Made by a program: the position numbers and the translations under genes. 32,952 nt of DNA from a virus. Location of the stretch: positions 1 to 32,952 of IMG/VR virus record IMGVR_UViG_3300035684_000008. One strand, 5' to 3'. Shown here piece by piece: positions 877 to 21,086 of the stretch; position 1 is the stretch's first letter; every line of letters starts with the position of its first letter. Under the pieces are notes generated by a model. The model did no database searches. It was not told the origin of the DNA and was given only the letters and a program-made list of their open reading frames with translations.

Positions 877-954
877 GCACTCCGGGCAGCGGCGAACCGC
901 CGAGGTGAAGGGGATCGCCACGAGGCGACGACCGTTACAGCGAGAGCAAGTCAC
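724..954 (-). CDS. Small Cys-pair (zinc-ribbon-like) protein, antisense to endolysin 3' end
   Basis: 76 residues from a GTG start that overlaps the stop of the upstream ribbon-helix-helix gene by four bases (GTGA), a layout typical of translational coupling. The N-terminus has two Cys pairs, Cys3/Cys6 and Cys23/Cys26 (CSRC and CPEC), as in a small zinc ribbon. After about residue 30 there is no recognisable feature, and this part lies opposite the endolysin coding sequence. The Cys pairs and the coupled start support a real gene. The 150-base convergent overlap argues for caution; the true product may be mainly the N-terminal ribbon. Function unknown. Confidence 0.5.
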   Translation of the reverse strand: MTCSRCNGRRLVAIPFTSAVRRCPECSLPGKGKVHPVEPPKVSAPAETLLSKARDEFLAQRGPRAQRVRGRVQVYR

Positions 955-1139
955 CGACGCTTCCGGCAGTGGTCGACACAGGCGTGGATGATCATCGCGT
1001 TCAACGACACCTTCCGCTTCGCGGCCCGTCTCTCGAGCTCGTTCTTCAGGACGACGGGAAGCCGAACGAAGGTCCGCGTTTTACGGATAACGGGCGCGCG
1101 GTGGAGCGGGTCGAGGGCGTCAAGGTCTCGCTTTTTCAT
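951..1139 (-). CDS. Ribbon-helix-helix (Arc/CopG-type) DNA-binding protein
   Basis: 62 residues, very basic. After a short N-terminal arm comes a beta strand (TFVRLP, about 23-28) and two helices (VVLKNELERRAAKR, then SLNAMIIHACVDHCRKR), the order seen in dimeric Arc/MetJ/CopG repressors, whose strand pair inserts into the major groove. Likely a small transcription regulator. It is followed by the Cys-pair gene with a four-base overlap, so the two form a leftward operon. The ribosome site before the ATG is weak. No clear promoter was found in the roughly 100 bases upstream. Confidence 0.7.
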   Translation of the reverse strand: MKKRDLDALDPLHRAPVIRKTRTFVRLPVVLKNELERRAAKRKVSLNAMIIHACVDHCRKRR

Positions 1140-4929: not shown

Positions 4930-5198
4930 GCCACGAATATACGGAGGGCCACGTCTTTACTGTGCCAAAAACGGGCTTCTATCAGGTCCGAGCCGCCGTA
5001 ACCCGCTACGAAAAGACCGGCCGTTTTGTGTGGCAGAAAAATCCGCGAAGGCGCTGGTACAGCTTCTGGAGGCCGAAGCAGATACTCGTTCCTGAGTTTC
5101 GCGCGGTGGAGGAATATAGCGGCTCGGAGGTAAAGCTTCTGGTTAAGGGCGAGGCGGTCGAACCCGTGTTACAGCCAATCCGGAGGATCGAGCCGTGA
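4926..5198 (+). CDS. Unknown small basic protein
   Basis: 90 residues. The GTG at 4926 is chosen because it overlaps the previous stop in a GTGA arrangement and has GGAGGCAG just upstream; the frame is open further upstream, but only inside the preceding gene. Beta-rich by eye, with a basic aromatic patch (KNPRRRWYSFWRPK, about 39-52), as in a small nucleic-acid-binding fold. No family recognised. The stop overlaps the next GTG start. Confidence 0.6.
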   Translation: MSHEYTEGHVFTVPKTGFYQVRAAVTRYEKTGRFVWQKNPRRRWYSFWRPKQILVPEFRAVEEYSGSEVKLLVKGEAVEPVLQPIRRIEP

Positions 5199-5710
5199 CG
5201 CTACTTCAAGCCAAAAGGATGTATAGGGTCAGCGGGATCCTCCGCGGGCCCTCGGAAAGAGGCAGACCTTACGAATGGCATCTCCCCGCCGAAAGCCCGG
5301 ACGTGGCCCTCGCGGCGGCCCTCGATCGCGCGCGGCTCGAGTTCGGCGCCCACCTCGTCGACGTCTCGGTCGTTGTGTTGGGGCCCCCCGTCGAGGCGAC
5401 TACCCTTGATGGAATGGCCGAGACCGACAGGCAGGTCCTAAAGGAGGTTCTCGGCCTGGATCCCGGTGCCTGGCTCGACTTCAAACCCTCCACCGATATC
5501 GGACACGCGATGTACGTCGTCACTTGGATGAGGCAGCACGGGTTCAAGTTCGTCCTCGCCGATACCTCGATCAGCGGAGTAGCTGCTGCCTCCGGCCCGT
5601 GGGCGTTTTTCGGCAGGTCGCGGGAGCGCGTACGGCCCATCCCGGGCTCTACCTTCGAGATAGCTATCTGTCTCGCCGCTGTCGAGGCCGTCAAGGCTTC
5701 GCGGGTCTAG
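5195..5710 (+). CDS. Unknown two-part phage protein
   Basis: 171 residues from a GTG start overlapping the previous stop (GTGA). It seems to have two parts. Residues 1-65 form an alpha/beta segment, with YEWHLPAESPDVALAAAL resembling small phage proteins in which a strand-helix unit precedes a helix of Ala/Arg. Residues about 75-171, from STDIGHAMYVVTWM to EIAICLAAVEAV, resemble in layout the short phage 'ABA sandwich' domains (a Ser-Thr-Asp opening and an Ala-Cys closing helix). The resemblance is by eye and not secure. Its 3' end overlaps the convergent glycosyltransferase gene by 20 bases. Confidence 0.65.
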   Translation: MTLLQAKRMYRVSGILRGPSERGRPYEWHLPAESPDVALAAALDRARLEFGAHLVDVSVVVLGPPVEATTLDGMAETDRQVLKEVLGLDPGAWLDFKPSTDIGHAMYVVTWMRQHGFKFVLADTSISGVAAASGPWAFFGRSRERVRPIPGSTFEIAICLAAVEAVKASRV

Positions 5711-6584
5711 CGCCCTCGGGATCCGGCTTCCGGAGTTCCTCGCGCAGCAGCTTGGGTACCGTATGCTTCCACGCCACCTTGTGGTGAAGCCGCGAGCTCC
5801 GGTCCTGGAGCATCGCTACGCGAACCGAGGAAGGCTGATACATGACCGAATAGAAGCTTTTTACGTACGTGCCCGACTCGAGGTACATCTCCGTCATCCC
5901 CCCAGCGTTTGCCTGAGTCTGCGTCTGCTCGAGGGTGATCTGGTTGGTGGTGAGGAGGAGGAGCCCGGTACTCGCGAGGCGGGTATAGGTATTGACGTCC
6001 TCATTCACGCGGCCGACGAACTGAAACCTCCGTTCGGTGCTACAGATGAAGGAGTTCATGCATTTGCGCTTGAGCTGGATCTTCTCGGCGAGCGCCGACT
6101 CGGGGCCACCGATGAAGTCCCCGCCCTGAGCGAACGCCAGTGACGCCGCCCCGGACCGAATATAGAACTCGAGGAGCGCCTCGAAAACGGCGTCGAGGTT
6201 CCGGATCACCTTCGGGTGATAGGTGAAGTCGTCGCCAAACCGGAACTGAAAATGCCGGTAGTCGTCGTCGAGCTGGATGAAGTAGCGGATCCCGAGCTGC
6301 TCCGCGATATCGAAGCTCGCGTTCCGGGCGTAGATGATAGCCCGGAGATCGTCGAAGTTGTCCCCGTTATCGAACGTCCGCGCTACGGCGCGCTTGTCGA
6401 ACACGATCACCTGATCGCCGAAGGTCTCGAGGTACTGCTCCCGCGTCGGGTCGAGGTCGTCGACGATCAGATAGATGGGGCCCGTATAGCCACAGCGCCG
6501 GAGCGAGTCGTAAGTAAAGACCCGATCGGGGCGCCCGTTGGTTAGGATGAACGCGACGAGGCGGTCTCCGGTATCATTCCGCAT
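5691..6584 (-). CDS. DXD glycosyltransferase, GT-A type (TET-associated-like candidate)
   Basis: 297 residues. The N-terminus has a Rossmann-like opening, FILTNGRPDRV (about 12-22) and IYLIVDD (37-43), followed by helices and the metal-binding motif FIQLDDDY (about 102-109), which matches the DXD site of GT-A glycosyltransferases that use nucleotide sugars. The pattern, NGRPD then VDD then LDDDY, resembles the phage glycosyltransferases described near TET/JBP enzymes, some thought to decorate modified bases. A protein or glycan target is also possible. No TET/JBP, thymidylate synthase-like or cytosine hydroxymethylase gene is in this window. The ATG lies within the ParB-like gene's end (11-base overlap), so both are translated together from a leftward promoter near 7540. 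Confidence 0.65.
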   Translation of the reverse strand: MRNDTGDRLVAFILTNGRPDRVFTYDSLRRCGYTGPIYLIVDDLDPTREQYLETFGDQVIVFDKRAVARTFDNGDNFDDLRAIIYARNASFDIAEQLGIRYFIQLDDDYRHFQFRFGDDFTYHPKVIRNLDAVFEALLEFYIRSGAASLAFAQGGDFIGGPESALAEKIQLKRKCMNSFICSTERRFQFVGRVNEDVNTYTRLASTGLLLLTTNQITLEQTQTQANAGGMTEMYLESGTYVKSFYSVMYQPSSVRVAMLQDRSSRLHHKVAWKHTVPKLLREELRKPDPEGARPAKP

Positions 6585-7419
6585 TTCGGTAAGCCTCCGC
6601 GATTTTCTCCGAGAGGACGACGAAGCCGTGCTCGATCGCCTTCTGAAAGTCGATGATCACGAGCGCCGAGTTCTCCATCAGGACCTGAGTCGGCTTCGAC
6701 GCGTGAGCGTAATACTCCGCGATCTTTTCGTAGTTGAAAACTACGTGGCGCCTCGCCGCGATCCGAAGGAACTCTTTCTCCTCCTCGGGAATATCCGCCG
6801 CCTCGATCTCCGCGACCAGGCTATCCGCCTTCGTGGTATCGAATAGCTCCTCGAGCTCGGGCTTTTCGCCTTTCGGTTCGTAGATCGGAGAGTCGATTTT
6901 CTTCGTATAAAGCTCCGCCTCGGCGCTATTTTCGCCTCCGCTCGAACTCCCGGGAAGGTCCTTGAAGAACTCGTCACCGAAGCTAATCAGGTCGAGGTCG
7001 GGGATCCGGAACTGTTCCCCGAGCTCCGGAAGGGAAAGAGACGCCTCGTGCATGAACTCGTAAAGGCCCTGCCGCTCCACCTGCCCGTACTGTGCGACGT
7101 CCTGAAGAACCCGGCGTTTAGCCTCCGTGACGTTCTCCGCGTCGATGAAGACTACCGGGACCGGGGGGATAATATAGCCCTCGGCCGCGCGGAGTTCCCG
7201 GAGAACCCGCGCGCGCTGGTGGCCCCCGACGATGTAGGTTTTCCCCTCGGGGGAACGCCAGACGTAGATCGGGAAGGCGAACCCGGTCTCGAGGATCGCC
7301 CGCTTGAGCTTCGCGTACTCGACGGAGGAAAGGCTTTTAAGGTTCCCCTGGAACGGCTCGAGCTCGTCGAGCGGTAGGACGTGCTTGGTTTCGCACGCGA
7401 TCCGGATCGTTTTGACCAT
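6574..7419 (-). CDS. ParB/Srx-fold protein with a conserved C-terminal extension
   Basis: 281 residues. Residues about 14-125 carry the ParB/sulfiredoxin-type domain: LKRAILETGFAFPIYVW (38-54) and the signature VGGHQRARVL (64-73), with its conserved Gly-Gly-His-Gln-Arg. Such domains use nucleotides or cut DNA in different families, and in phages often accompany DNA-modification genes. The C-terminal part (about 175-281, from YEPKGEKPELEEL) is a separate helical module ending in ALVIIDFQKAIEHGFVVL. The same C-terminal sequence style occurs, to my recollection, in other phage ParB-like proteins; this is not checked. Not a chromosome partition protein: no helix-turn-helix and no parS or ParA partner seen. 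First gene of the leftward pair with the glycosyltransferase. Confidence 0.75.
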   Translation of the reverse strand: MVKTIRIACETKHVLPLDELEPFQGNLKSLSSVEYAKLKRAILETGFAFPIYVWRSPEGKTYIVGGHQRARVLRELRAAEGYIIPPVPVVFIDAENVTEAKRRVLQDVAQYGQVERQGLYEFMHEASLSLPELGEQFRIPDLDLISFGDEFFKDLPGSSSGGENSAEAELYTKKIDSPIYEPKGEKPELEELFDTTKADSLVAEIEAADIPEEEKEFLRIAARRHVVFNYEKIAEYYAHASKPTQVLMENSALVIIDFQKAIEHGFVVLSEKIAEAYRNAE

Positions 7420-7483
7420 AGTTAACCTTCCTCCCGTTGTCGTTACGTGGCGCCTACTTACGGCGCCTATCGAAACCAGAAGC

Positions 7484-7568
7484 TATATAGCAGCTTTTAA
7501 GTCGAATCAAACAGTATATCTTTTTTATATACAGCACGTCAAAACCGGGATATATTTTATATATACAG
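7484..7568. repeat. AT-rich divergent intergenic with repeats (candidate operator)
   Basis: Two similar direct repeats, TATATCTTTTTTATATACAG (7515-7534) and TATATTTTATATATACAG (7551-7568), plus a near-palindrome around AGCTATATAGC (7484-7494), lie between divergent genes. They overlap the leftward promoter, so they are candidate binding sites for the ribbon-helix-helix protein encoded at 7882. That link is inferred from position. Confidence 0.5.
7513..7542 (-). promoter_or_regulatory. Sigma-70-type promoter for the ParB/glycosyltransferase operon
   Basis: Read leftward: TTGACG (plus-strand 7542-7537), 18-base spacer, TATACT (7518-7513). Five of six matches to each consensus box. The region is markedly AT-rich compared with the rest of the window. 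Transcription would start about 80 bases before the ATG at 7419. Confidence 0.65.
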
Positions 7569-7597
7569 TCCGATAAGGGAAAGGTAAGGGATTCGAT

Positions 7598-7861
7598 ATG
7601 ATCGTCGTCGTTTCCAGGGTCGCGGCGCTCAAGGAGTTTACCGAAGGATATCACGGCCGGAAGCTGAGCTCGAAGCTGACGAAAGCGGAAACCGAGTACC
7701 TCGTGAAGTTCTGCGAGGATCACGCGAACCTGGGTCACCTCGAGTTCGAGTACGCGGTCAACCGGGCTCAGCTCGGGACCGAGTCGAAGCCGAAGCACTG
7801 GGCGCTGATGGCCGAGATCCTCGTCAGCGCGAATTCGCGGGCCTTCCGGCCGCGGACCTAA
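7598..7861 (+). CDS. Unknown small protein, first gene of the rightward half of the cassette
   Basis: 87 residues with GGAAAGGTAAGGG upstream of the ATG. Predicted mainly helical: KLTKAETEYLVKFCEDH (about 27-43), then HLEFEYAVNRAQLG. A single Cys lies at about 40. No family recognised. It precedes the ribbon-helix-helix gene by 20 bases and shares its terminator at 8098-8131, so the two form one transcription unit divergent from the ParB/glycosyltransferase pair. It could be a partner of those proteins, but nothing in the sequence states that. Confidence 0.65.
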   Translation: MIVVVSRVAALKEFTEGYHGRKLSSKLTKAETEYLVKFCEDHANLGHLEFEYAVNRAQLGTESKPKHWALMAEILVSANSRAFRPRT

Positions 7862-7881
7862 ACCGTTAAAGGAGGCCACCG

Positions 7882-8049
7882 ATGGCTGCGGTGAAGAAAG
7901 AGAAAAAGGAAAAGATCATTTTATCCCTGACTGCCTCGATGCTGGGTCAGCTCGACGAGAGGGCGGCGCGTTCGGGAGAGAGCCGTCAGGCCGTGATCCG
8001 CGCGCTCCTCGCCCGCGGCCTCGAAAAGAAAAGCCGGAAACGGAGCTGA
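7882..8049 (+). CDS. Ribbon-helix-helix regulator, 55 residues
   Basis: Starts at the ATG after a near-ideal AAAGGAGG site (7868-7875). The basic N-terminus (KKEKKEK) leads into KIILSLTASMLGQLDERAARSG and SRQAVIRALLARGLEKK: a strand followed by two helices, the CopG/Arc/MetJ ribbon-helix-helix order, complete in 55 residues as usual. Probably a dimeric repressor or activator. Its location at the end of the unit flanked by an AT-rich repeat-bearing divergent promoter region suggests it may control both directions, including the ParB/glycosyltransferase genes. Transcription ends at the terminator 49 bases downstream. Confidence 0.8.
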   Translation: MAAVKKEKKEKIILSLTASMLGQLDERAARSGESRQAVIRALLARGLEKKSRKRS

Positions 8050-8097
8050 CGTAAGGTTATAGGGGGGCCGTCAGTCGCCTTCATGGCGCTATCGGCC

Positions 8098-8131
8098 GGG
8101 GCGCTCGCCGTCGAGCAGGCGCCCCTTTTTT
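8098..8131 (+). terminator. Rho-independent terminator closing the cassette
   Basis: GGGGCGC (8098-8104) pairs with GCGCCCC (8119-8125), and six T residues follow (8126-8131). It lies between the ribbon-helix-helix gene and the next unit. Confidence 0.8.
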
Positions 8132-8147
8132 CGATTCGGAGGGCAGT

Positions 8148-9654: not shown

Positions 9655-9686
9655 TTGATAGCCCGATGCCTTAGCACACTCCCTGC

Positions 9687-9692
9687 TATTAT
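9687..9692 (+). promoter_or_regulatory. -10-like TATTAT just before the receiver gene
   Basis: TATTAT ends 7 bases before the GTG start at 9700. If used, transcription would begin almost at the start codon (leaderless message). No -35 box at the right distance was seen. Confidence 0.25.
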
Positions 9693-9699
9693 CGGCCGC

Positions 9700-10080
9700 G
9701 TGGCCGCAAAACACAGGTGCGTCCTCCTCGTCGAGGACGATATCAGCATCCGGGAGACCCTCAAGGACGTCTGCGAAGCGGAGGGCTATATTGTTTTCAT
9801 GGCGAGTAATGGAGCCGAGGCGCTCCGGAAGCTCGAGGTGATCCCGAAGCCCTGCCTGATCCTCTGTGACCTCATGATGCCCGTCATGAACGGCTGGGAC
9901 TTCCTCGACCGCCTTTCGGCTGATCAGGACTTCGCGGTCGTCCCCGTCGTCGTAATGTCCGCTGTAAGCCCCGAGGGGATCCGTAGGCGCGTGAAAGCGA
10001 TCCGGAAGCCCTTCGATATCGAGGCGATCATCGGAACGATCCGTGAGGCCTGTGGCGGCTGCCCTCGGATAGCGTCATGA
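9700..10080 (+). CDS. CheY-like response-regulator receiver domain protein
   Basis: 126 residues from GTG at 9700; a longer frame from a TTG at 9655 exists but adds residues outside the domain. The receiver fold is complete: acidic pocket Glu12-Asp13-Asp14 (LLVEDD), phospho-acceptor Asp57 (LCDLMMPVMNGWDFL), Ser87 (VVVMSA) and Lys103 (RKPF). There is no output domain, so it would act as a single-domain signalling partner, like CheY or Spo0F. In bacteria it would be phosphorylated by a histidine kinase. A phage copy may intercept or redirect host signalling, or be a captured host gene; neither is shown. It sits in a rightward row between unknown helical genes and the resolvase gene, with no kinase in the window. 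Confidence 0.85.
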   Translation: MAAKHRCVLLVEDDISIRETLKDVCEAEGYIVFMASNGAEALRKLEVIPKPCLILCDLMMPVMNGWDFLDRLSADQDFAVVPVVVMSAVSPEGIRRRVKAIRKPFDIEAIIGTIREACGGCPRIAS

Positions 10081-19734: not shown

Positions 19735-19770
19735 AGCGGAGGCCTACTCACGGACGGGTGGGCCTCCGCT
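19735..19770 (+). terminator. Hairpin between the first and second fibre genes
   Basis: AGCGGAGGCCTAC (19735-19747) pairs with GTGGGCCTCCGCT (19758-19770), 13 pairs with one GU. There is no T-run; the next gene's ribosome site follows at once. It may be a processing or stability element rather than a full terminator. Confidence 0.5.
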
Positions 19771-19790
19771 GGATCACGGAGGAGTACATC

Positions 19791-21086
19791 ATGGCACAGG
19801 TCCCAACTAAGATTCGCAGACGGTATTTACAGAACGCCATCGTCGGCGTCGACCAGGTCGACGAGACGATCGCGCTGAACTCGCGCGTCGGTGGCGCGTT
19901 CGTTCTCCGCGGGGACTTCGATCCCTCGCTCCAGACTTTCCCACTCCACCCAAACAAGGGCGATACGTACGAGGCCTCCGGCCCCGGAGTTATCGGATCC
20001 GAGCGTTTCGCAGAGGGCGACCTTGCTCATTACGACGGCGCGAAGTGGCTCCGGATCCGGAACGAGGTCGACGCCGAGTTCGTCGCCGCCCGGATCTCCG
20101 AAATCCCCGCCGCGCGGAAGCTGCCGATCACGCTGGACGCTCAGAGTCTCTCTGACGGTTTCGTGACGCTGCCCTTCGTGGTGGTCAACCAATCGGTGCA
20201 GGTCTCCGTCGAGGGCGTGATCCTCGAGGAAGGCTTCCACTACTCCCTCGGCGACGTCAACGTGGGCTCCGGTGTCATGAAGACTCGGGTCACCTTCCTG
20301 ACGCCTCTCCTTGCTGGCAGCTCGCAGGCGCTCGTCGAGGGAGATCGTTTGACGCTACAGGCCCACAGCCAGGTGAACCCCGGCCTCGTCGGTGACCAGG
20401 GGCCCGCCGGACCTCAGGGCCCGCAGGGTCCAGTCGGCCCCCAAGGTCCGGAAGGTCCTCAGGGACCAGCCGGGATCCAGGGAGCTCGAGGCGAGCAAGG
20501 CGTCCCCGGCAACACGGGCCCCCAGGGCGACCCAGGCCCGCAGGGACAGCGCGGGGAGCAGGGCTTGACGGGTCCGATGGGCCCTCAGGGTCCGATCGGT
20601 CCTACGGGCGCCACGGGGCCCGAGGGGCCTCGCGGAGAGCAAGGGATCCAGGGTATCCAAGGGATTCCGGGCGCTCAGGGTCCGCAGGGACCGAAGGGCG
20701 ATAAGGGAGACAAGGGCGACGCCGGCGAGGCCGGAGCTCAAGGCATCCAGGGGATCCAGGGCCCCGCTGGCGCGAAGGGCGACCAGGGCGAGCCGGGGAT
20801 TCAGGGTCCGCAGGGTATCCAAGGGCCTCAGGGCCCGATCGGACCTCAGGGCCCGCAAGGACCCGCCGGCTCCGACGCCGACGCTACTGCCGCGGTCGCG
20901 GCGGCGCGCGAAGGCGTCATGCTGAAGGCGTCGAACTTCTCGGACGTCGCCGATAAGGCGGTCGCTCGTACGAACCTCGGTCTCGGGTCGATGGCGACTC
21001 AGAGCGCAAACGCCGTAGCCATCACGGGCGGCACCGTCAACGGCGTCACGTTCGACGAGGTTGTTTTCGACGGCGGAACCTATTAA
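19791..21086 (+). CDS. Collagen-like tail fibre protein
   Basis: 431 residues from the ATG at 19791 (GGAGG just upstream). The N-terminal [13 protein letters not shown] matches the first fibre's start. Residues about 108-195 contain the beta unit shared with the two previous genes ([30 protein letters not shown]). Residues 201-359 are 53 uninterrupted Gly-X-Y triplets, often GPQ, GIQ, GPA and GPI, a collagen-type triple helix. The C-terminus has [19 protein letters not shown] and [13 protein letters not shown], motifs of fibre tips. It is likely a trimeric fibre part between tail and receptor-binding tip, where Pro gives stiffness. Confidence 0.85.
20391..20867 (+). repeat. Collagen-type Gly-X-Y repeat tract (53 triplets)
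   Basis: 477 bases coding for Gly at every third residue without a break. The nucleotide repeats (GGTCCTCAGGG, GGCCCGCAGGG and so on) are variable in the third base, so the tract looks selected at protein level and not recently expanded. Confidence 0.9.

Follow-up and report, generated by a model that had tools for sequence, protein, structure and literature searches.

A TAGT-family glycosyltransferase and its constant modular partner as a probable two-component phage DNA glycosylation unit

Among the glycosyltransferases of the TAGT family is the beta-glucosyl-HMC-alpha-glucosyltransferase of phage T6 (HMC, hydroxymethylcytosine), which puts a second glucose on glucosyl-hydroxymethylcytosine (PMC13216743). 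Solitary TAGT homologues, unaccompanied by alpha-GT or beta-GT, were found in 288 of 753 phage genomes in a 2026 survey and were called potentially novel transferases (PMC13216743). The virus record IMGVR_UViG_3300035684_000008, whose whole length of 32,952 bases was analysed and is here called the window, encodes a member of this family downstream of a ParB-like protein that ends in a conserved module (Table 1). An earlier note, made from the letters alone, had proposed that the two leftward genes may glycosylate phage DNA or a host surface. We consider it probable that they form a two-component phage DNA glycosylation unit, DNA being the best inference for the target.

Several known systems bear comparison. 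In the TAGT operon of locus L189, overlapping genes encode ParB, TET/JBP and TAGT proteins. It shares with the window the PF20691 family, the overlapping operon layout, the gene of an 87-residue protein in the same record and a ParB N-terminal domain 45% identical to that of the window (E 5e-37), nearer than any module-fused ParB among the loci compared. The two differ in that the window has no TET/JBP, its partner protein ends in the module whereas the L189 ParB has another C-terminus, and the TAGTs are distant (18% identity over 167 residues). T6 shows the reverse of the window, with a thymidylate-synthase-family gene adjoining its TAGT and no module. In the window we find neither the TET/JBP enzyme that marks a TET/JBP-TAGT system in the same operon or phage nor the dCMP hydroxymethylase of T-even hydroxymethylcytosine glucosylation. 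The ynaK-TAGT pair of Rac-like E. coli prophages has the same gene order and overlap, with 53% identity between the TAGTs and 36% between the ParB-module partners, but it lies in the late region, between trkG and the terminase genes. Phage ParB-domain proteins also adjoin the carboxymethyltransferase CmoX, the role of ParB there not being established (PMC12783734); the likeness is a ParB-type domain tied to phage base modification, while enzyme and chemistry differ. T4 alpha-GT, a DNA glucosyltransferase, differs in its GT-B fold and hydroxymethylcytosine acceptor. It binds the T4 clamp gp45, an interaction that does not set the level of glucosylation (PMC13216743) and that provides a precedent for a clamp-recruited DNA glycosyltransferase.

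The two leftward genes share 11 bases (6574-6584), as the earlier note had described; the partner protein carries the sequence YIVGGHQRA and the glycosyltransferase QLDDDY. The latter matches PF20691 over residues 12-228 (E 1.1e-32; 114 bits for a curated cut-off of 27.5) and phrog_842 (E 1.9e-72). Its AlphaFold2 (AF2) model (pLDDT 86.9, pTM 0.86) gives Foldseek hits in the PDB to the GT-A enzymes WrtF, COLGALT1, TarP, GnT-I and SpsA, with E values of 3e-6 and weaker. The earlier note had staked its proposal on a predicted GT-A fold, and this is what model and hits show. The alignment of relatives has 54 invariant columns, including the DxD-type DDD motif, which is expected to bind metal and nucleotide sugar. 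Strong conservation of the enzyme across phages of Bacteroidota, E. coli, lactobacilli, Nocardia and a haloarchaeon suggests one universal acceptor.

The partner has two parts. Its N-terminal domain matches the structures of ParB, Noc and Srx (Foldseek E 3e-5 to 4e-3). Of 48 relatives in the alignment, 28 match PF02195, the window's own domain scoring under the Pfam cut-off. Identity between relatives is concentrated in the C-terminal module, where it reaches 39-68% with invariant Y, F, L, R, A, Y, E, D and A residues. The module matched nothing in Pfam or NCBIfam and had no credible match to a PDB sequence, and among the PDB fold matches listed for the partner none lay outside the ParB part. 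Assignment of the module to a known enzyme was dropped on these grounds, and a metal site was discarded because H225 and H239 are substituted in some relatives (phage c5, L060, L064). No ParA-like ATPase was present among the window ORFs scanned (those of virion proteins in part; parS was not searched for). Together with the lack of the ParB domain in 28 distinct relatives, this led us to abandon a role in partition.

Those 28 distinct sequences have the module by itself. By pattern matching, 26 of them have QxxLF, QxxMF or QxxLDIF in their first 40 residues, before a variable linker; of the 3,313 rightward ORFs of the same loci, modules included, 30 (0.9%) show QxxLF or QxxMF among their first 15 residues. 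We take this motif to resemble bacterial sliding-clamp-binding motifs. It belongs to the standalone modules of relatives, the window partner being the ParB-fused form. The switch between fused and standalone forms requires four changes on the TAGT tree, at least three of them forced by well-supported branches. We read the ParB domain and the clamp-type motif as putative interchangeable routes to DNA.

A relative of the partner is encoded directly upstream of TAGT, on the same strand, at 85 of 86 loci; at the single exception the contig begins 50 bases ahead of TAGT. Conversely, a search with the module matched at least 600 stretches, and among the matches listed all 78 loci compared have TAGT downstream, adjacent in 65 and after one intervening gene in 13. 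The earlier note had named a failure of the homologues to co-occur as a ground for refuting its proposal, and the two proteins in fact almost always occur together. The constant partner of TAGT is the module, not the ParB domain. The module-TAGT pairing is new here, though part of it may have been noted before. The intervening gene encodes a histidine phosphatase with a fused cytidylyltransferase-like domain in 10 of the 13 loci (L105, L113, L129, L135, L146, L147, L154, L156, L161, L162) and the nucleotidyltransferase without the phosphatase in L114; either form possibly supplies a dedicated nucleotide sugar or polyol. In L102 it encodes a SAM methyltransferase with a weak score, and in L155 a second TAGT. 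These genes look like donor-making or sugar-decorating ones, and the inserted phosphatase-nucleotidyltransferase or second TAGT fits what is expected of a glycosylation operon. The additional enzyme of L155 (5344-6198) is a divergent TAGT in tandem, as though two sugars were added successively. At 69 or more of the 119 loci with enough sequence, an ORF of the terminase cluster begins no more than 2 kb downstream and in the same orientation, a position that suggests late expression. The window pair is arranged differently: it is set apart from the virion genes, reads leftward from its own promoter-like site and is separated by some 7 kb from the terminase gene, which has the opposite direction.

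Enzymes that would make a hydroxylated acceptor base are essentially missing from pair-bearing records. TET/JBP (PF12851) was detected neither in the window nor in any of 40 related records, the same profile being positive in G034 and G035. The thymidylate-synthase type (PF00303) is missing from the window and from 39 of the 40 other records with the pair; the remaining one is the large Vibrio phage pv27, where the gene is annotated as thymidylate synthase, and T6 and Aeh1 were positive in the same test. For both enzyme types this agrees with the earlier note, which had seen no base-hydroxylating gene. The C5-methylase profile PF00145 gave only two matches across 41 records, both weak and partial, and a methylase route to a TET substrate was dropped for that reason. 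With many records fragmentary, the absence of a gene from any one of them carries little weight. In Lactobacillus phage c5, whose 32-kb genome is complete and includes a cos site, the pair is present and no other modification gene is annotated. T6 and Aeh1, with TAGT and a thymidylate-synthase-family gene, lack the module, as do two TET/JBP phages; within this small set the module and a hydroxylating enzyme seem to exclude each other.

The gene of the 87-residue protein gives a further link to base modification. A search with it led to L188 and L189, both of whose records carry TET/JBP, and all relatives found with the narrow search pattern used belong to phages that have TAGT or TET/JBP, or to near-copies of such phages. 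In L188 (1688-4075), ParB and TET/JBP genes are accompanied by a weakly matched GT-B-type glycosyltransferase in the TAGT position.

Families, folds, constant pairing, domain swapping and the pattern of hydroxylating genes were computed; from them we infer a mechanism in which DNA as substrate, the timing and the protection are the conjectural parts. TAGT would move a sugar from a nucleotide sugar, with the module as its obligate co-factor, needed for access to the substrate, for specificity or for the acceptor step. The ParB-fold domain, or in other phages the sliding-clamp-type motif, would carry the module to DNA. Replicated phage DNA would then receive the sugar, usually late and right before packaging, and host nucleases would be blocked. 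Since neither a hydroxymethylase nor a TET enzyme is encoded, TAGT and module might use a group that ordinary DNA already offers; alternatively, the module might help to make the acceptor. That glycosylation proceeds with no base hydroxylase, at an amino group or some other group that ordinary bases carry or at a module-made acceptor, is a possibility that we put forward tentatively.

Several points weigh against DNA glycosylation by the pair. GT-A enzymes normally require a hydroxyl, and the genes that would provide it on a base are those missing above; several unannotated window ORFs could hold an unrecognised hydroxylase. The clamp motif, seen in related proteins, amounts to a short pattern, and a location ahead of the terminase genes would suit modification of a virion or packaging protein too. 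The pair could glycosylate a capsid, portal or terminase protein, the partner acting as a scaffold that takes TAGT to the packaging complex. The proximity of terminase-cluster ORFs at so many loci favours this, as does the precedent of cluster O mycobacteriophages, whose glycosyltransferase genes between portal and protease are proposed capsid modifiers (PMC4351075), and the GT-A matches include enzymes acting on protein hydroxylysine. We nevertheless judge it rather unlikely: ParB folds and clamp-type motifs belong to DNA, the nearest ParB N-domain is in a TET/JBP operon, TAGT and module stay unchanged across phages of very different hosts, and the window pair is distant from its terminase gene and reads the other way.

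An ordinary TAGT pathway, in which an unrecognised or host enzyme hydroxylates the base and the module is merely a DNA adaptor, would conform to the known TAGT phages, which glycosylate hydroxymethylated bases, the T6 enzyme being encoded beside a thymidylate-synthase-family gene (PMC13216743). Several window ORFs without any match leave room for such an enzyme. We regard this pathway as doubtful, because no recurrent acceptor-making enzyme stood out near the pair at about 165 loci (gene clusters judged by position and partly by Pfam) and the complete c5 genome has no annotated modification gene. Moreover, we know of no host base-hydroxylating pathway. The host-surface half of the earlier proposal has lost ground. 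A cassette for O-antigen or teichoic acid, unrelated to DNA, could invoke the cell-wall enzyme TarP among the fold matches, but the pair matches no known surface family and occurs also in a haloarchaeal virus. A surface target is made less likely by the constant partner with its ParB or clamp-type features, to the point of seeming very improbable, and DNA stands strengthened as the favoured target.

Phages that carry relatives infect E. coli, Salmonella, lactobacilli, Nocardia, Vibrio and Haloarcula, and further relatives come from genomes of Bacteroides, Muribaculaceae, Pantoea, Superficieibacter and others; a search of plasmids returned zero TAGT relatives. Among 5,426 complete E. coli genomes, 1,572 match the DNA of the pair and about 885 cover at least 80% of it (at least one in six). 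The K-12 gene ynaK is what remains of the ParB-module gene, 254 bases of its 5' end that are identical throughout, module and TAGT having been lost; a literature search for ynaK yielded nothing useful. In strain 50579417 RefSeq calls the intact gene a pseudogene 'missing C-terminus', yet its frame is open to the end. These observations come from loci L168 (NC_000913.3 1425377-1425640) and L169.

The region from which the pair is read has the leftward promoter-like sequence and the divergent rightward genes, for proteins of 87 and 55 residues, that the earlier note had pointed out. Two promoter-like sites were found where shuffling gives 0.7, and both are covered by direct repeats that may be an operator, a function suggested by their position. 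The gene of the 87-residue protein recurs in relatives at differing positions, and no ribbon-helix-helix (RHH) gene was found in relatives of the pair; the idea of a conserved regulator pair was dropped on both counts. The suggestion of a self-contained, self-regulated cassette is accordingly weak, the RHH gene having no counterpart in relatives and the pair commonly preceding terminase genes elsewhere. The proposed terminator is called from a stem followed by T6 at a gene end; its fold (-25 kcal/mol) is only 1 SD (standard deviation) better than shuffles (z -1), and a simple terminator scan did not list it.

Table 1. Features of the glycosyltransferase locus and its control region in the window
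Feature	Position	Strand	Basis
TAGT-family glycosyltransferase, 297 aa, GT-A fold predicted	5691-6584	-	PF20691, phrog_842, AF2
DDD, residues 106-108, DxD-type motif	6261-6269	-	invariant in 44/44 aligned relatives
ParB-like protein with C-terminal module, 281 aa	6574-7419	-	phrog_620 E 3.6e-18; homologue upstream of 85/86 TAGT relatives
C-terminal all-helical module, about 107 residues (171-277)	6589-6909	-	conservation and pairing with TAGT
ParB/sulfiredoxin-fold N-domain, about residues 13-137; GGHQR box 7213-7227	7009-7383	-	Foldseek; PF02195 in relatives
Two 26-base direct repeats (7509-7534, 7543-7568), possible operator	7509-7568		81% alike, 34 bases apart
Promoter-like TTGACG-N18-TATACT into the ParB-like gene	7513-7542	-	10/12 consensus matches
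Weaker promoter-like TATACA-N17-TATATT, overlapping the leftward site	7528-7556	+	9/12 matches
87-aa protein	7598-7861	+	relatives in L188, L189, L010 group, L106
RHH protein, candidate local repressor	7882-8049	+	RHH_1 E 1.8e-6; phrog_4738 E 1.2e-8
Candidate intrinsic terminator after the rightward pair, stem-loop 8098-8125 then T6	8098-8131	+	fold of 8085-8140

Some other ORFs of the window deserve mention. ORF 5195-5710 (+) is convergent with the TAGT gene, their 3' ends overlapping by 20 bases, and has a Phage_ABA_S domain (E 1.6e-6). The product of 951-1139 (-) is a second RHH-type protein with a match to Arc-like repressors (phrog_582 E 1.4e-6). A stand-alone response-regulator receiver domain (PF00072 E 2e-16) is encoded in this phage genome at 9655-10080 (+), and an ORF among the presumed virion genes (19758-21086, +) has long Gly-x-y collagen-like repeats.

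The module gives the solitary TAGTs a named partner, whose DNA-reaching part is exchangeable. The near-complete pairs of 885 of the 5,426 complete E. coli genomes, with only a remnant in K-12, offer a tractable test system. Should DNA be the target, a pair of genes may suffice to give common temperate phages a sugar-modified genome, which restriction and CRISPR enzymes would then encounter. The acceptor chemistry would then be new and, if no hydroxylase is needed, the pair would represent a widespread, unrecognised phage DNA modification.

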